Below the pieces are notes generated by a model. The model was not told the DNA's origin and did not search any database. It saw only the letters and a program-made list of their open reading frames with translations. Below, piece after piece: positions 4,463 through 20,587 of a DNA stretch of 39,794 nt. The first letter of the stretch is position 1. Each line of letters begins with the position of its first letter. Location of the stretch: assembly GCA_003224235.1 (NCBI GenBank), contig QHYU01000053.1:1-39794 (forward strand), written 5' to 3'. The translations under genes and the position numbers were made by a program. The DNA is from Acidobacteriota bacterium (GTDB taxonomy: Bacteria; Acidobacteriota; Terriglobia; Acidiferrales; UBA7541).

Positions 4463-5062
4463 ATGAGAAAACGCCGCGCGCTAATTGCATCCCCGCTGGA
4501 ATGGCAGATGACCGCGGCCCCCGTGCCGCATCCCGCCCAACCGGTCGCCGCCGAACGTGGTGGAACGCAATTGCGCACTCCTCGCCCCGTTGTTCTCGTG
4601 GATAGCCGCGAGCGGAACCCATTTTCTTTCGCTCGCTTTCGGGGCTGGTTCGCCGGCGTGGAAAAAAGGCCATTGAAACTTGGTGATTATTCCCTGGACG
4701 GCTTAGAAGAAGTCTGCGTGGTCGAGCGAAAAGACCTTTCAGACCTGGTGCACTCTCTGACGGTCGAGCGCAGCACTTTCCTTGACCGGCTGCGGCGGAT
4801 GAGCCGGTACCCACAGCGCCTGTTGGTCATCACGGCCGCGCTGAGCCAAGTAAAATCGCCTTATTCATACAGCAACGTCAGCCCCAACAAGATCACCCAG
4901 TCACTGGTGGCCGTTCAGGCGGGCTTGCAGGTGCCATTTCTCTGCGTCGAGACCCACGAACTCGGGGAAGAGATTGTTGCATCCTATCTGTATCAGGTCT
5001 TCCTTTATCAGTGGGTCGAAGCCCATGACTACGGCCGGTTTCTGGTGGAGGACGATCTGTAG
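4463..5062 (+). CDS. Stand-alone ERCC4/XPF-type nuclease domain protein
   Basis: The 199-residue product is essentially one ERCC4 nuclease domain. The catalytic pattern is present: VDSRERNPF with D47, R49 and E50, GDYSLDG with D75, and VVERKDLSDLV with E88, R89, K90 and D94, matching the GDx(n)ERKx3D signature of XPF/Mus81-type structure-selective endonucleases. There is no helicase domain and no obvious (HhH)2 domain, so partner or substrate selection must come from elsewhere. A start at 4463 is preferred because GAGG lies at 4454-4457; an in-frame ATG further upstream (4391) lacks family sequence. The gene converges on the ABC permease gene, with 67 bases between stops. A role in processing branched or flap DNA is inferred from the family. 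Confidence 0.85.
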   Translation: MRKRRALIASPLEWQMTAAPVPHPAQPVAAERGGTQLRTPRPVVLVDSRERNPFSFARFRGWFAGVEKRPLKLGDYSLDGLEEVCVVERKDLSDLVHSLTVERSTFLDRLRRMSRYPQRLLVITAALSQVKSPYSYSNVSPNKITQSLVAVQAGLQVPFLCVETHELGEEIVASYLYQVFLYQWVEAHDYGRFLVEDDL

Positions 5063-5129
5063 GTGGCTTGTTTTGCTGCTAGGCACGCGCAGGGTCTTTC
5101 AGCGGGTTGGTTGTGTCCTACTACTTGCT

Positions 5130-6791
5130 TTAGCGCGCGAGATGCGACGTGAGGACTTCACGCTGGTCGCCGGCAAGGTGATCACAGCGCTCGAGCGCGA
5201 CGACATAAACCCACCCGGCAATGGCGCTCAAACCGAGGAAAAGTCCCGCGGCCAGCCACATTCCTCCGAACCTGCGAGTGACAAGCAGAATCGTCCCCAC
5301 CAAACCGAAGAGAGCAATTTGCACGAGCAGGCCGATGAGCATGGTCATCCCGGCCGCGCGCTGTCTGTGCAATGCACCGAACTCGAGGCGGCGCGGGTAA
5401 CATAGCGAAAGCAAATTTCCGGTCGTAAACTGCACGAGCATGGCAAGAAGTAGCGCGGCGAGTGTGGCAGTGACCGTGGCCGCCCCTGGCGATCCAAGGA
5501 GAAGACTCAATAGCAGCCAGACCAGCGCTGTCTCCCCCGCAACGATCAGGCCGAGGGTCAGATTCTTGGCCAGCAACACGTCGCGGAACCGCACCGGAGC
5601 AAGGAAGAGCAACTGGATGCCGCGACCCTCGTAAGCAAATGCATTGTTTCCCAGTTGCGACAGGAGCAGAAACATGTAGGCAAGGGCTGAGGGAAACATC
5701 AGCTCAGGCGAGCGGGCGAAAAGGTCGGGGCGCCCTTGGGGTCTGCTCCAGAAGACAGCGAAAAACCCAATCAGCATCGGCGCTAGCGCCAGGTTCATCA
5801 GCAGGACGCTATTGCGACGGATATAGCGAAGCTCTTTTTCGAGCAACGCTGCCACAGGGGCGCGCAGGAAAGAGGAGCTAAAAGACGCAAAAGATGTCGA
5901 GGAGCTGACCGAACAATGAGCGGCCGGGGCGGAGGCGGGAGCCTGGGACTCCCCGAGGTCTTCGCCGAGATACTGCGCGCGGAGCCTGTGCCGCAGGAAT
6001 AGGCCAAAGACCAGGCCATAGGCGGCCACCAGTGTAGCGCAGCTCAGAGCTTCTGCAGCGTGGCCGCGTGCCGCGCTTGCCAGTGCTCGGCCTACCAGGC
6101 CCGGTGGGAGGAAGCCCGCGATCGGCGGCAGCTTGAGCGCCACTGGCGCGACGCGCCGGCTCCAGCTCTCGACGAACGCCCCCGAAAGCTGAAAGCCGAG
6201 GATGACGAGCATGAGGAGCACCCACACCGCTTCGCGGGTGCGACGCCGGGCCAGCAGCCGCTCGACCCAGGTAAAGATCATGCGGCTCAGAAGCAGGTTC
6301 ATCGCGGCAAACAAGGCAAAGATCAGCAGTGTCCAAGGCAACAGGTCCGGCCGGGCCAGCGAGATCCCCACGGCAATGCAAACCAGCCAGAACAGCGCGG
6401 CCACCGCGACGGGGTCGAACAGGCCGTAGGCCAGACTGAGCAAGAAGAATACGGAGAAGCGCAAGGGGAAACGCAGCAGGTTGCGGAAATCGAAGCTGGC
6501 AGTGGAGGTGGCGAGCAGCACCGGCAGGAAGTGCCAAGCGAAGAAGATGCCCCACAGCAACAGGACGAGCAGCCGGAGCTTGCTCTCGGCCACGATGTAG
6601 TAGGCGCCCGCGGCGAATGCCAAGCCGATGCCGGCGACAGCGAATCCGCTCAGCGCGCTGACCAGAGTGAGCGCGAGGAGATCGAGCTTGCCACTAGTTG
6701 TGCGCAGTGAGTTGCGAAATAGCCGCCACCGCAGCCCGGCAATTAGCGTCACCTGCTGGGTGAATCCCGCGGAGAGGGCTACCTCAGCCAC
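5130..6791 (-). CDS. ABC-2 type transporter permease
   Basis: This 553-residue membrane protein has roughly a dozen hydrophobic segments. Examples lie after LDLLALTLVSALSGFAVAGI, around LLLWGIFFAWHFLPVLLA, and in the C-terminal half from LLMNLALAPMLIGFFAVFW onward. It starts at a GTG (6791) that overlaps the last 13 bases of the ATPase gene, with GAGGA just upstream, so translation is coupled. It resembles the large permeases of ABC exporters with no identified substrate that pair with a separate CcmA-like ATPase. The soluble stretch in the middle (APASAPAAHCSVSSSTSFAS) is a low-complexity linker between two membrane halves, as though two half-permeases were joined. The substrate cannot be read from the sequence. 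Confidence 0.85.
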   Translation of the reverse strand: MAEVALSAGFTQQVTLIAGLRWRLFRNSLRTTSGKLDLLALTLVSALSGFAVAGIGLAFAAGAYYIVAESKLRLLVLLLWGIFFAWHFLPVLLATSTASFDFRNLLRFPLRFSVFFLLSLAYGLFDPVAVAALFWLVCIAVGISLARPDLLPWTLLIFALFAAMNLLLSRMIFTWVERLLARRRTREAVWVLLMLVILGFQLSGAFVESWSRRVAPVALKLPPIAGFLPPGLVGRALASAARGHAAEALSCATLVAAYGLVFGLFLRHRLRAQYLGEDLGESQAPASAPAAHCSVSSSTSFASFSSSFLRAPVAALLEKELRYIRRNSVLLMNLALAPMLIGFFAVFWSRPQGRPDLFARSPELMFPSALAYMFLLLSQLGNNAFAYEGRGIQLLFLAPVRFRDVLLAKNLTLGLIVAGETALVWLLLSLLLGSPGAATVTATLAALLLAMLVQFTTGNLLSLCYPRRLEFGALHRQRAAGMTMLIGLLVQIALFGLVGTILLVTRRFGGMWLAAGLFLGLSAIAGWVYVVALERCDHLAGDQREVLTSHLAR

Positions 6792-7612
6792 GAGAGTTCC
6801 TCATCGGCCCGCCGGAGGGAAGCCTCCTGGCCAACGATGGTGAGAAAGATCTGTTCGAGCGTGAGTCTTTCTCCCGGTGTCGCGGGAGAAAACCCAACTC
6901 CGTGTGATCCGTCGGCGCTGGCGGAAGAGGCCACTCCGGCGCGGAGCTCCTCAAGCGAGCCCTGGGCCACCAGCCGGCCCTGGTGGATGATGGCCACGTG
7001 GCTGCACAGCCGCTCAACGATCTCCAGCACGTGCGAAGTGAGGAAAATGGTGACGCCGCGCGAAATCATGCGCGTGAGCATGGCCTTGAGCGTGCCCGCG
7101 GCAATGGCGTCCACACCCTCGAACGGCTCGTCGAGAAAGAGAATTCTCGGGCCATGAATGACGGCGGCGGCCAGCGCCAGCTTCTTCCGCATCCCGTGGG
7201 AGTAGTCGGCGATGAGCGTTTTCGGGCGGTCGGTAAGCTGCATGAAGTCGAGCAGCTCGGCGGTGCGCTGCGCTGCGGTCGAGCGGTCCAGCCCATACAT
7301 CCTGCCGGCAAAGTTCAGATACTCCGCTCCAGTAAGGCGTTCGAACAGCGCTAGGCCTTCGGGGACCACGCCGATCTGGCGCTTCACTTCGATCGGATGC
7401 TCTTCGAGATCGAGTCCCAGCAAGCGAACGCGGCCGCTGCTGGGTGCCAGCAGGCCTGTGAGCATCTTGATGGTTGTGGACTTGCCTGCGCCGTTGGGTC
7501 CCAGAAAGCCGAAGAATTGTCCGGCGCCCACCGTGAGATCGATCCGGTTGACAGCCACCAGTTCGCCGAAGCGGCGGGTCAGGTTCTCGGTGACAACCGC
7601 CGGCTGGGTCAT
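6779..7612 (-). CDS. ABC transporter ATP-binding protein
   Basis: The 277-residue protein has all ABC ATPase motifs: Walker A GPNGAGKST (residues 38-46), Q-loop region GVVPEGLALFERLTG, signature variant YSHGMRKKL near 136, Walker B ILFLDEPFEGVD near 157, and the switch histidine in TSHVLE near 192. The YSHGM form of the signature is common in ATPases that pair with ABC-2 exporters (CcmA/DrrA-like). The last 50 residues are a variable tail. The ATG at 7612 has GGGAG six bases upstream. The gene precedes and overlaps its permease, forming a two-gene exporter operon that powers transport across the inner membrane. Confidence 0.95.
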   Translation of the reverse strand: MTQPAVVTENLTRRFGELVAVNRIDLTVGAGQFFGFLGPNGAGKSTTIKMLTGLLAPSSGRVRLLGLDLEEHPIEVKRQIGVVPEGLALFERLTGAEYLNFAGRMYGLDRSTAAQRTAELLDFMQLTDRPKTLIADYSHGMRKKLALAAAVIHGPRILFLDEPFEGVDAIAAGTLKAMLTRMISRGVTIFLTSHVLEIVERLCSHVAIIHQGRLVAQGSLEELRAGVASSASADGSHGVGFSPATPGERLTLEQIFLTIVGQEASLRRADEELSWLR

Positions 7613-16751: not shown

Positions 16752-17069
16752 TCAATAACCCGCGTTCATGCCAGTTTGGCTTCTGATTGCAGCCTGTTGT
16801 GCGATTGCCGCAAGCTGCGCTTCCGATCTAACCAGGCCTGCTGCGGCGAGCTGATTCAGGAGAGCCTCTATCAACTGCTGGCAGTTGCCAGGCACCGGGC
16901 TGGACCAGGAGTCCAAGACCTGCTCAACCGTTGTCAGAATTGCTGTGTCGGCGGCATTTGCCAGCTGTAGCGAGACGACAAGAGAAGACTCATAATTCGT
17001 GAGCAGGTCCCCCCTTGCCGTTACTCGCAGACGCGTGCGGCGGAGTAGTACAATTCCGTTGGAGGCCAT
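16752..17069 (-). CDS. Hypothetical protein, divergent partner of the HTH-like gene
   Basis: A possible 105-residue protein beginning MASNGIVLLRRTRLRV, with an Ala/Leu/Gln-rich helical middle (VVSLQLANAADTAILTTVEQ, IEALLNQLAAAGLVRSEAQL). I do not recognise a family. Its ATG at 17069 is separated by a single base from the ATG of the opposite-strand gene at 17071. No Shine-Dalgarno sequence is visible, so translation may be leaderless or the frame may be chance. Codon choice looks reasonably coding, with no stretches of improbable residues. In favour is its head-to-head placement with a DNA-binding-like gene; against it is the lack of any known homologue. Confidence 0.35.
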   Translation of the reverse strand: MASNGIVLLRRTRLRVTARGDLLTNYESSLVVSLQLANAADTAILTTVEQVLDSWSSPVPGNCQQLIEALLNQLAAAGLVRSEAQLAAIAQQAAIRSQTGMNAGY

Positions 17070-17076
17070 TATGGCC
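17064..17076. promoter_or_regulatory. 13-bp inverted repeat containing two divergent start codons
   Basis: GGCCAT-T-ATGGCC is a perfect 6-bp inverted repeat around one base. It contains the ATG of the plus-strand gene at 17071 and of the minus-strand frame at 17069. GGAGG at 17061-17065 serves the plus-strand gene, and TACAAT at 17049-17054 could be its -10 box. It could be an autoregulatory operator. Confidence 0.3.
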
Positions 17077-17373
17077 GACGGAACCCTAATAGTGACTCCA
17101 TTTGCATCTACAAAACACACGGCTGAGATTCTTGGTGTGTCCAGTTCGCGAAAGCGTCAACTCTTGAGGATCCTGGAGTCTGAAACGCCTTTCAAACAAG
17201 GTCTTTACATCACTGTAAAACCTTCAAAGAAGAACAAGGGAGCGAGAAAACGGAAGTCTAAGCCTCTTGGGGTTAGCAGCAAGACTTGGACACTTAGGTG
17301 GAAATCCTCAAAGAGGAGCCATGCCTCTAAGAAGGCGCGCGCGCTCTCGAAGGCCAGGAAATCGACCCGCTAG
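17071..17373 (+). CDS. Small basic HTH-like protein upstream of the TIR-like gene
   Basis: A 100-residue protein that opens MADGTLIVTPFASTKHTAEI, followed by LGVSSSRKRQLLRILE. This resembles a short helix-turn-helix of the type 'tAexLGVSxsRxxQL' found in small antitoxins and excisionase-like proteins. The second half is extremely rich in Lys, Arg and Ser (KPSKKNKGARKRKSK, SKRSHASKKARALSKARKS), suggesting nucleic-acid binding. GGAGG at 17061-17065 fixes the start. Its last 53 bases overlap the start of the next gene in another frame, so the two are co-transcribed and probably translationally coupled. An antitoxin or regulator role is inferred from this arrangement, not from a family match. Confidence 0.6.
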   Translation: MADGTLIVTPFASTKHTAEILGVSSSRKRQLLRILESETPFKQGLYITVKPSKKNKGARKRKSKPLGVSSKTWTLRWKSSKRSHASKKARALSKARKSTR

Positions 17374-17917
17374 CGTTTTCCTGAATATCCCCTACGACGA
17401 GAAGTTTGAGAAGCTTTATCTCGCCTATATAGCTGGCGTCAGCGCCTTGGGACTTATCCCACGAGCCACACTGGAGCTTCGAGCAAGCGTCAGAAGACTG
17501 GATCGCATCCTCGCTTTGATAAAGGTGTGCCCCTTCGCCTTGCACGATCTGTCGCGAGTGGAACTCGATAGAACTCCACCGTGCACACCGCGCTTCAACA
17601 TGCCTTTCGAACTTGGACTCTCGGTGGCTTGGGACAAGTTTGGATCAAGACCCCATGGTTGGTTTGTATTCGAGGCCAAGGGTTTTAGGCTCGCAAAATC
17701 GCTGAGTGATCTCAGTGGCACAGATATATACCTCCACAATGGCAGAATAGACGGTGTCTTTAGAGAGTTGTGCAATGCCTTTGTCAGGAGGGACCTGAGG
17801 AAAAGCCTTCCTAAGATTTTGAGAACGGCAGGGGTGAGATCTGCTTTTGAGGCTCGCGTATTCAGAGACGTGTGCGTGCTGGCCAGTGCATCTGCTCGTA
17901 GGAACGTAATCTCCTAA
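17321..17917 (+). CDS. TIR/nucleoside-deoxyribosyltransferase-like protein of unknown function
   Basis: A 198-residue protein from the ATG at 17321 (AAGAGGAG just upstream). After a basic N-terminus it reads VFLNIPYDEKFEKLYLAYI, then GLIPRATLE, LHDLSRVELDR, TPRFNMPFELGLSVAW, WFVFEAKGFRLAKSLSDLSG and IDGVFRELCNAFVRRDL. The order of a first strand plus 'D.S....N.PFELGL' recalls the Rossmann-like TIR and nucleoside 2-deoxyribosyltransferase folds, where the Glu of the 'FELG' segment cleaves or transfers an N-glycosidic bond. I recall it as a recurrent uncharacterised bacterial family, often next to a small partner gene. The likely activity is nucleotide or NAD binding or cleavage (inference). 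Base composition is more AT-rich than neighbours, suggesting transfer. The last 30 residues may be unstructured. Confidence 0.7.
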   Translation: MPLRRRARSRRPGNRPASVFLNIPYDEKFEKLYLAYIAGVSALGLIPRATLELRASVRRLDRILALIKVCPFALHDLSRVELDRTPPCTPRFNMPFELGLSVAWDKFGSRPHGWFVFEAKGFRLAKSLSDLSGTDIYLHNGRIDGVFRELCNAFVRRDLRKSLPKILRTAGVRSAFEARVFRDVCVLASASARRNVIS

Positions 17918-17963: not shown

Positions 17964-18059
17964 CAGCCACATGCGCGCAGGCCGGAAACCCTAGACTGTC
18001 ACCAAATTGTCACCAAAGACGGCGCAAAACGGGCGAATCGAGCAACCCCAAAAAATTGA
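17964..18059 (+). pseudogene. Possible remnant of a tyrosine-integrase C-terminus
   Basis: A 31-codon open stretch between two stops contains CHQIVTKDGAKRANRATPK. It resembles the tails of phage-type integrases, which often end in variants of 'CH..VTK'. No catalytic RxxR or Tyr region is present nearby, so this is at best an eroded end. It lies just downstream of the TIR-like gene and would fit arrival by integration. Confidence 0.28.
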
Positions 18060-18325: not shown

Positions 18326-20587
18326 ATGATCGGTCGACTTGCCGCCTTCTTTTTATTGTCGGCCATCGTAGCTCAGGCCGCAGAAATCAAAGGCAAAATC
18401 ACCAGTGTCGTCGGTGGCGAAGGGCTCGGACGAGTCCAAGTTTCCGTATTAGAAGCCGGGGTGGCTACGACGACCTCGGTGGATGGCGCCTTCGTCATCC
18501 AAAACCTTGCACCGGGCAATTACACCCTTCGTTTAAATGCAGTGGGGTACCGGCTCGTGACGGTGCCGTTCTCGTTGTCCACTGCTCAGGACGTCAAAGA
18601 GTTTTCCATCAGCATGGCTCCGGACACGTTTCGCCGTACTGAAATTGTGGAAGTGAATGGAGATGTCTTCCAGGGGGGCGATCCTCCTTCAATGAACGAA
18701 ATAAATCTTGTCGCCTCGGAAATCAAGGAAACTTCAACCGTACTCGCAGATGATCCCTTTCGGGCAATTCAGGCTTTACCCGGAGTTTCTGCCTCTGGGA
18801 ACGACGAGTTCTTTGCCCAATTCTCAGTCATGGGCGCGCCGTTCCGCCATGTAGCTGTTTATATTGACGACGTTCTTGTGTCGCGCCCCTTTCACGACAT
18901 TCCTGGCGAGAGTGGCGCTTCCTCGAGCGTGCTGGCGAGCGACACAGTAGAAGAGATGAAACTATTGCCGGTAGCCTATCCCCCCAAATATGGCGATGCT
19001 ACCGGCGCTGCCGTGGACATACGCACACGAGACGGCAGCCGGACCGCTCCGCTCTTCCGCCTCTCGGTGGGCCTCGCCGAAAGCGAATTTCTTGGGGAAG
19101 GACGCTTGGGCAGTACAAAACGGGGCTCCTGGCTGGCCTCTGTTCGAAAAAGCTACTTGGGATATCTGCTGCGGAGCCGTCTTGATTCTTTCACAGATGT
19201 TTCTTTTTACGATGCCAACCTCAAGTTTACTTATGACCTCGCACACAATCACAATTTGAACTTTTATGCCCTGGGTGGCCATACCGATGCTAATGTTCCA
19301 AGCCGCGCTTCACCCTTGGATATCAATGACTTTAAGAAAGGCACCAGTGACTTCATCCTCTCGAGGGTTGGATGGCGGTGGGCCATTACCTCCCACCTGT
19401 TGCTCGACACCCATGCGGCTTATATTCGCTCGCCATTCGAAAATCGCAATTCATTGAAACAGGTTCTAGTTACCGATGATTACGGCGAATGGGTCGGGGG
19501 AACATCCGTCGCTTGGAACTGGAAAAAGGATCAGGTGCTCGAGGCTGGCTGGACGGCCCGTCGTCTGCGCGACAGTGGGTACTCCGCGTTTTACGGCCTT
19601 ACCGGACCGGAATCACGAACACAATTCGGCGTTTCAAATGGCACAGGTCTGCGTCAGAGCGTCTATGCGCAAGGCGCTTTCACGTTCTGGAAAGATCGCG
19701 TGCATGTGCTGGGCGGCCTGCGCGGAGACAGTCAGCAACAAATTGGCGTTCATCAGTTTTCGCCGCAAATCTCCGTATCCATGCGCGCGGCACCTTCCAC
19801 GCACCTTCAATTCGGGTTTGGTCGCTATGCCCAATTCCCGGATTTTCGCCAATTGGCAGGTGATTGTTCCTTTGTTGGGCAGTTGCTACGAACGGCGAAC
19901 CATTTCACTGCTGGGGTGGAGCAGCGTCTCGGCGAATATGCACGGATACGGGTGCAGGCTTTCGATCGCCAAAATGAAAATTTGGTGGGGAGCCGTAACC
20001 CCTTTTCCTGTGGTCCGCTGAGGCCTCCTACCGCGCCGTATCTGCGGGACTATTCCCGTGGCGTCCAGCTGATCCTACAGAGGAGAAGCGCCAATCGCCT
20101 TTCCGGCTGGTTAGGATATACGTTGACTTTTGCGCGCCAGAGGGTCTTATCAATTCTTCTCCCCGGTGCTCCGCTTTTCTTCACTAGCCCTTATGTCCCC
20201 ACATTCGAAGACCAGCGCCATTCCCTCAACGCCGTCGCCAGCTACCGCCTCACTCCCACCATAAATCTTGGCGGAAAATGGCTCTACGGCTCAGGATTCC
20301 CCATCCCGAGCGGCTTCTACGCACTGGTGGGGAATACATTCGTGCCGGTCGGCTTGAATCAAGTGCGGCTTAGCCCCTATGAACGCCTCGATCTACGAGT
20401 GGATAAATCCTGTGCTTTCACTCACTGGAAGCTTACACTGTACGGAGAGGTCCTCAATGTAACCAATCACAACAACCGACGATTCGTCACTTCAACGATT
20501 ATAAATCCATCAACTGGACAAACCTCTGTCCAGACGAGGCGCGGCCTTCCCATTACTCCCACCGCAGGCCTCGTTTTTGAGTTTTGA
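18326..20587 (+). CDS. TonB-dependent receptor with carboxypeptidase-regulatory-like domain
   Basis: A 753-residue outer-membrane receptor. Residues 1-18 are a signal peptide (LAAFFLLSAIVAQAAE). Residues 20-95 form a CarboxypepD_reg-like domain (IKGKITSVVGGEGLGRVQVS, then APGNYTLRLNAVGYR). The plug follows (DPFRAIQALPGVSASGND, VYIDDVLVSRPFHDIPGE, YPPKYGDATGAAVDIRTRDG), then a barrel of alternating aromatic strands ending in GLVFEF with the terminal Phe expected for BAM insertion. It would import a large substrate using TonB energy, but the substrate is unknown. It is shorter than the 1000-residue Oar-like receptors common in Acidobacteriota. GAGGTGGCG precedes the ATG. It stands alone, with no transporter genes beside it. 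Confidence 0.93.
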   Translation: MIGRLAAFFLLSAIVAQAAEIKGKITSVVGGEGLGRVQVSVLEAGVATTTSVDGAFVIQNLAPGNYTLRLNAVGYRLVTVPFSLSTAQDVKEFSISMAPDTFRRTEIVEVNGDVFQGGDPPSMNEINLVASEIKETSTVLADDPFRAIQALPGVSASGNDEFFAQFSVMGAPFRHVAVYIDDVLVSRPFHDIPGESGASSSVLASDTVEEMKLLPVAYPPKYGDATGAAVDIRTRDGSRTAPLFRLSVGLAESEFLGEGRLGSTKRGSWLASVRKSYLGYLLRSRLDSFTDVSFYDANLKFTYDLAHNHNLNFYALGGHTDANVPSRASPLDINDFKKGTSDFILSRVGWRWAITSHLLLDTHAAYIRSPFENRNSLKQVLVTDDYGEWVGGTSVAWNWKKDQVLEAGWTARRLRDSGYSAFYGLTGPESRTQFGVSNGTGLRQSVYAQGAFTFWKDRVHVLGGLRGDSQQQIGVHQFSPQISVSMRAAPSTHLQFGFGRYAQFPDFRQLAGDCSFVGQLLRTANHFTAGVEQRLGEYARIRVQAFDRQNENLVGSRNPFSCGPLRPPTAPYLRDYSRGVQLILQRRSANRLSGWLGYTLTFARQRVLSILLPGAPLFFTSPYVPTFEDQRHSLNAVASYRLTPTINLGGKWLYGSGFPIPSGFYALVGNTFVPVGLNQVRLSPYERLDLRVDKSCAFTHWKLTLYGEVLNVTNHNNRRFVTSTIINPSTGQTSVQTRRGLPITPTAGLVFEF

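Follow-up and report, generated by a model that had tools for sequence, protein, structure and literature searches.

A conserved pair of overlapping genes in Acidobacteriota encodes a small helix-turn-helix protein and a predicted TIR/NDT-fold N-glycosidase: a candidate toxin-antitoxin or abortive infection module

Small helix-turn-helix (HTH) proteins that accompany NAD-cleaving effectors are known from the RES-Xre modules, in which the HTH-type antitoxin NatR is paired with the NAD-degrading toxin NatT (PMC11535050). Judged by analogy, NatR-NatT and the other RES-Xre pairs are the closest experimentally known layout to the gene pair described here, in which a small HTH protein is likewise encoded upstream of an effector (PMC11535050). 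However, RES has an ADP-ribosyltransferase-type fold, unrelated to that of our effector, and no Xre, MbcA or ParS toxin-binding domain was seen in our partner protein. In SPARTA (TIR-APAZ with a short Argonaute), a structural match to our effector, a TIR-fold NADase is controlled by a nucleic-acid-binding partner; the pair described here has neither Argonaute nor APAZ, and its partner is an HTH, HU-like or basic protein of 60-135 aa across the family.

Two enzyme groups come close to the effector itself. With the CAP12/Pycsar TIR domain (PF10137) it shares a profile alignment over most of the domain, an RxNxxxExG motif with the catalytic Glu and an SDxxG motif, but it lies below the Pfam cut-off, stands alone as a domain and is accompanied by a small HTH partner, with no STING, SAVED or other cyclic-nucleotide sensor. 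With nucleoside deoxyribosyltransferases (NDTs), DNPH1 and the CMP hydrolases BcmB and MilB it shares the fold (VIA Z 12-14), the Glu of xELGxA and a profile score above all shuffles, whereas the match spans 36 columns, the HTH partner is obligate and no Pfam match is found. The DUF4062 TIR-like NADases (Swarozyc) are another TIR/NDT-like family recognised via a conserved Glu (PMC13174449); by their description they are a different family, activated by phage portal proteins and often carrying extra domains (PMC13174449). Type II NDT retrons such as Eco1 combine an NDT-like NADase effector with an HTH-type DNA-binding part (PMC12548924), whereas nearly all loci of our pair have no reverse transcriptase (RT).

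We analysed a window, meaning the whole stretch of 39,794 nucleotides of an Acidobacteriota contig, in which a partner gene overlaps an effector gene. To our knowledge, this partner-effector arrangement is undescribed, and a search of the open-access literature, with subscription literature outside its scope, found no description of the pair. We put at about even the chance that it is a toxin-antitoxin or abortive infection module, in which the effector would cleave an N-glycosidic bond, most likely that of NAD+, under the control of the partner.

The gene pair is a conserved unit

Both open reading frames start with ATG and overlap by 53 bases, just as the sequence-only reading had them (17071-17373 and 17321-17917). 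The features of the locus are as follows.

17071-17373, + strand: partner gene, 100 aa, small HTH protein with a basic tail (ORF, alignment, AlphaFold model; relatives under purifying selection)
17321-17917, + strand: effector gene, 198 aa, TIR/NDT-fold predicted N-glycosidase (ORF, alignment, structure model, profile comparison)
17061-17065, + strand: GGAGG, Shine-Dalgarno-like, 5 nt 5' of the partner ATG (sequence)
17313-17318, + strand: GAGGAG, Shine-Dalgarno-like, 5' of the effector ATG and within the partner gene (sequence)
17110-17184, + strand: HTH unit of the partner, residues 14-38, the family-conserved part (AlphaFold model, partner alignment)
17191-17370, + strand: Lys/Arg-rich tail of the partner, predicted disordered; HU, DUF2188 or HU-like segments instead in relatives (model, alignment)
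17375-17401, + strand: strand-1 motif VFLNIPYDE (N22, P24 and D26 invariant), expected nucleotide contacts (effector alignment; TDS-clade description in PMC9503650)
17543-17617, + strand: conserved region of the effector (alignment, AlphaFold model, profile comparison, PMC9503650)
17609-17611, + strand: codon for Glu97, the invariant residue predicted to be catalytic (no exception in 65 sequences; same alignment position as the CAP12-TIR and NDT Glu)

Neither protein of the window matched any Pfam, NCBIfam or PADLOC model up to E 10, and a PDB sequence search gave chance matches only. The effector is single-copy in its source genome and was not found in one relative genome of the same genus (about 80% complete).

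Conservation was assessed on the best 80 of 306 stretches in bacterial genomes that encode effector relatives, which gave 70 distinct complete loci. In 64 of these 70, the gene immediately upstream, on the same strand, encodes a homologous small partner; the figure is partly circular, since these loci also served to seed and refine the partner profile. In the 64 loci the partner stop codon falls 1 to 133 nt 5' of the conserved core of the effector. The remaining six also have a small protein at the partner's place: L084 has a similar ORF overlooked by the profile, L056 and L012 have DUF2188-like proteins, L086 has a SWIB-like protein (read by eye), and L009 and L011 have other small basic proteins, HU-like by eye in L009. 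A search of 151 whole genomes with the partner profile is the more independent test, although some of these genomes also gave training rows. It returned 16 strong matches (E up to 1.5e-7), all 16 of which adjoin an effector, in one case an effector remnant. The next matches fall to 1.6e-4 and lie mostly within long unrelated frames; weak solo partners could be missed because at most 36 candidates were scored per genome. No third gene family was found to recur near the pair across the loci.

Selection and shared history point the same way. Pairwise dN/dS between close pairs was 0.06-0.20 for the effector and mostly 0.1-0.4 (about 0.10-0.57 overall) for the partner; therefore, both genes are kept as proteins, with the partner changing faster. 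The partner and the effector co-diversify: across 52 loci, effector similarity correlates with that of the HTH part (Mantel r 0.505) and with that of the partner tail (Mantel r 0.226), with 0 of 2000 permutations as good in either case. The two overlapping genes are a real conserved unit, beyond chance, and the earlier idea of a pair conserved in other genomes, which could have failed here, withstood both the upstream survey (64/70) and the reciprocal search (16/16). The layout is that of type II toxin-antitoxin modules, with adjacent genes and a small DNA-binding-type protein always found with the effector.

The G+C content of the pair is 50.9%, against 59.6% for the window. The sequence-only reading had taken this AT-richness as a sign of recent arrival; the composition was read correctly, but it is weak evidence of arrival because the entire 10-22 kb part of the window is lower in G+C. 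Within this part, beside the pair, positions 18326-20587 encode a TonB-dependent-receptor-like protein of 753 aa, whose best identity in the nearest relatives is 32-37%, with no close homologue there. The possible integrase tail of the sequence-only reading is no more than about 31 open codons (17964-18059), which include RRPETLDCHQIVTKDGAKRANRATPKN and resemble the end of a phage-type integrase. The stretch CTGTCACCAAANNGTCACCAAA downstream of the pair gives no evidence of an attachment site or integrase, since it is single-copy in the genome and missing from 60 relatives. The flanking genes are not conserved in the closest relative, which makes an empty-site comparison impossible there.

The partner and its exchangeable tail

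The AlphaFold model of the partner contains one confident unit, formed by helices 14-21 and 25-38 (pLDDT about 82-94), followed by a low-confidence tail. The N-terminal consensus of its relatives is close to M..PVxITTPFPTxEExAxxLGVSxxRxKxL, and HTH models of the sigma-70 region 4, HTH_17 and Xre-like types match them weakly. A Bac_DNA_binding (HU) domain is present in three relatives (best E 4e-22) and DUF2188 in one; the partner at L071 is an HTH with an HU-like domain. The composition of the tail has a median of 31% K+R against 3% D+E. The helix unit at 14-38, the weak HTH and sigma-70 region 4 matches and the HU and DUF2188 domains of relatives bear out the description of the first protein as basic and HTH-like. 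Together, the helix unit, the consensus and the domain swaps suggest that the constant part of the partner is a short HTH segment and its variable part a swapped nucleic-acid-binding module.

The DUF2188 forms include a partner at L089 (7667-7948) composed of an HTH and a DUF2188 tail. Its sister L056 (7300-7563) encodes a DUF2188-like protein with no HTH, and the protein at L012 is DUF2188-like too. A search for operator-like inverted repeats upstream of the partner found no conserved one, none in the window and no general excess across the loci, where 12 of 65 upstream regions scored above 2 sd and the mean was 5.35 against 5.02.

These properties of the partner are also the basis of the main rival to a toxin-antitoxin module, namely that the partner is a histone- or HU-like sensor of DNA or RNA, rather than an antitoxin, which activates the TIR-like effector upon meeting foreign nucleic acid, as Argonaute does in SPARTA. 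We regard this as possible, though on the unlikely side. The varying part of the partner would bind nucleic acid in every form (basic tail, HU, HU-like arms, DUF2188), the protein taking its place at L086 appears by eye to be SWIB-like, and SPARTA TIR-APAZ is among the structural neighbours of the effector; a conserved HTH, encoded by a gene that lies upstream of the effector gene and overlaps it, would also fit an antitoxin. A bolder idea, which we hold to be unlikely, is that of a minimal two-gene abortive infection system, widespread and undescribed, in which a histone- or HU-like protein with an exchangeable tail would directly switch on a TIR/NDT-type NADase upon foreign DNA, with no need of Argonaute, cyclic nucleotides or msDNA.

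Fold and predicted activity of the effector

In an alignment of 65 effector relatives, 20 residues never vary. They form four clusters: VFLNIPYD, which follows strand 1; R59; HDLS with PRFNMPFELG, which follow strand 3; and SDLSGTD...H. The invariant positions are F20, N22, P24, D26, R59, H75, D76, S78, P90-P95, E97, G99, D130, G133 and H139. Every motif picked out in the sequence-only reading is there, and it is in these motifs that the family is most conserved.

The AlphaFold model of the effector (mean pLDDT 87.6, pTM 0.75) is a Rossmann-like alpha/beta sandwich, as in the TIR-DrHyd-SLOG (TDS) class, whose structural definition we took from PMC9503650, and it matches NDT, DNPH1 and TIR structures. 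With Foldseek, the first-ranked match was a nucleoside deoxyribosyltransferase (E 9e-5), followed by TIR-STING and SPARTA TIR-APAZ. VIA-align gave Z 13.8 for DNPH1 (rmsd 2.4 over 121 residues), 12.9 for AbTIR and 12.8 for the CMP hydrolase BcmB, with others at similar Z. N22 and D26, together with P24, lie at the end of or right after the strand formed by residues 18-22, while H75, D76, S78, P90-P95 and E97 follow the strand 72-76 or lie within the helix 93-107. The effector family has both structural features of the TDS class.

Profile comparisons extended these matches. The effector profile aligned to that of CAP12/Pycsar TIR with a score of 32.6 over 115 columns, most of the domain, which puts PRFNMPFELG onto ARQNVIFEFG and SDLSG onto SDFDG; against NDT it scored 32.9 over 36 columns only. 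The highest scores after column shuffling were 21.9 (CAP12/Pycsar TIR) and 20.8 (NDT), so that none of 200 shuffles was as good in either comparison. Glu97 aligns with the catalytic Glu of both CAP12-TIR and NDT. A TIR- or NDT-like fold had been predicted from motif order alone, and the model matches and the profile scores above shuffles uphold it. As for named families, the window protein has no match to PF10137, and its relatives score 13.1-15.5 bits against a gathering score of 24.7, some of them with weak matches (E 0.014-0.1). PF05014 matches neither the window effector nor appears among the families matched by the 65 members, and membership of the classical TIR_2 family (PF13676) was rejected (hhalign p 0.16, motifs out of register). 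Based on the model, the effector is predicted to belong to the TIR-DrHyd-SLOG superfamily, but to no matched named family.

Since the family has both TDS features, the effector is likely active as an N-glycosidase. The fold alone would not single out a substrate, as it is common to DNPH1, NDT and CMP hydrolases; NAD+ is a reasoned guess, prompted by a motif like that of CAP12 and by the conflict-system setting. Between R162 and D163 (17804-17809), the window effector is about 20 residues shorter than nearly all of its relatives, and it may therefore be an altered or inactive copy. The gap leaves the ORF open and in frame, and all invariant residues are kept.

The structural matches also suit a nucleotide-pool enzyme with its regulator, that is, a DNPH1-, BlsM- or NDT-like enzyme that hydrolyses (d)NMPs, whether modified or normal, and has no toxic role, given that the best of them are DNPH1, CMP hydrolases and NDTs, with an NDT at Foldseek rank 1. 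However, the profile covers most of the domain with CAP12/Pycsar TIR and just 36 columns with NDT, and the effector is obligately tied to a fast-evolving small basic protein. Plasmid copies also count against such an enzyme, and a metabolic nucleotidase is less likely because of the patchy distribution and decay of the family (about a third of copies broken); we consider it decidedly unlikely.

Distribution, neighbourhood and proposed mechanism

The effector is found in 48 of 299 genomes of the class (16%), in a patchy pattern. By our own count, about a third of the effector loci are fragments or contain stops, some of them merely lying at contig ends. Nearly all close effector relatives come from Acidobacteriota. 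In the effector tree, members from Rokubacteria, Tectomicrobia, Nitrospirota, Myxococcota and Pseudomonadota are interspersed among those of Acidobacteriota; horizontal transfer would fit, with the reservation that many members are metagenome bins.

A distant effector branch (33-40% identity) is plasmid-borne in Sphingomonas, Bradyrhizobium, Rhizobium and Microvirga. At the loci that were read, these effectors are directly 3' of a small ORF, and the partner sequences differ. Among the neighbours in Sphingomonas aliaeris are genes for Tn7-like transposition, for a RES NAD+ phosphorylase, for HU and for a serine protease, as well as one of AbiEii type, and a RecB-like nuclease lies 3' of the effector at the Rhizobium locus. 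On the S. aliaeris plasmid (L097, 6600-8606) HU, a trypsin-like protease and an ORF of 56 aa precede the effector, which may be a four-gene version of the arrangement. Neither effector subfamily was found in phage records.

The chromosomal copies stand among diverse ordinary genes, with no Pfam family in more than 2 of 145 neighbours. PADLOC on the neighbours returned one RT, two proteins matching RT-protease models and otherwise scattered hits, all of them raw matches, uncorrected for background. The expectation that the pair would be found near defence genes is therefore not generally true, as chromosomal neighbours are mostly ordinary genes.

A distant effector homologue is encoded on an IMG/VR viral contig (L241, 5983-6603) behind a small basic ORF (5686-5976). 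Directly upstream of both is an RT with a YVDD motif (4601-5536), and a second small ORF downstream (6646-6900) has the same SKSAAGSALTQ-like repeat; this contig (4601-6900) is possibly a retron that recruited this effector. Among the Acidobacteriota loci, an RT was found at L024 alone (1595-2584), about 1.2 kb upstream of the pair; it is 27% identical to that of L241. Although these two loci, and the occurrence of NDT-like effectors and HTH proteins in retrons (PMC12548924), speak for the pair having split off from a retron or another multi-gene defence system, RT relatives were present at L024 and L241 only among the fetched loci and not in the window, with no conserved third gene and no match to a PADLOC retron effector model, so that we rejected retron membership for the family as a whole and find this origin highly improbable.

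We return to the toxin-antitoxin or abortive infection module, for which we postulate the following course. The partner and the effector would be co-translated as one module. The partner, made first and co-inherited, would restrain the effector, and would bind nucleic acid via its HTH and its exchangeable basic, HU or DUF2188 tail, probably repressing the operon too. A trigger that changes the partner or its DNA binding, or loss of the partner, would free the effector. With Glu97 as its catalytic residue, the released effector would break the N-glycosidic bond of a nucleotide, most likely NAD+, and halt cell growth or abort phage infection. We infer the substrate, toxicity, inhibition and trigger in this scheme.

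We counted in favour of this module the obligate pairing, the fold, Glu97, the selection on both genes, their co-diversification, the patchy spread over several phyla with broken and plasmid copies, the basic tail, and NatR-NatT as a precedent. The same tail also counts against it, as the toxin-binding tails of antitoxins are often acidic and this one is strongly basic; so do the missing upstream operator repeat, the chromosomal neighbours with no obvious defence association and the gap in the window copy. The pair, its conservation and selection, the fold, the invariant glutamate and the HTH are supported computationally.

These findings would add an unnamed enzyme family to the NAD- and nucleotide-cleaving effectors that bacteria use in conflict, and its partner exchanges one DNA-binding part for another, in HTH-basic, HU or DUF2188 form. 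For the uncharacterised domain DUF2188, to which no paper found in the open-access literature gives a functional context, such a context is now at hand in its pairing with a TIR/NDT-like enzyme. In Acidobacteriota, few systems of this kind are known to have been studied. The pair is common in soil members of this phylum and, at less than 900 bp, is small enough for direct laboratory tests.
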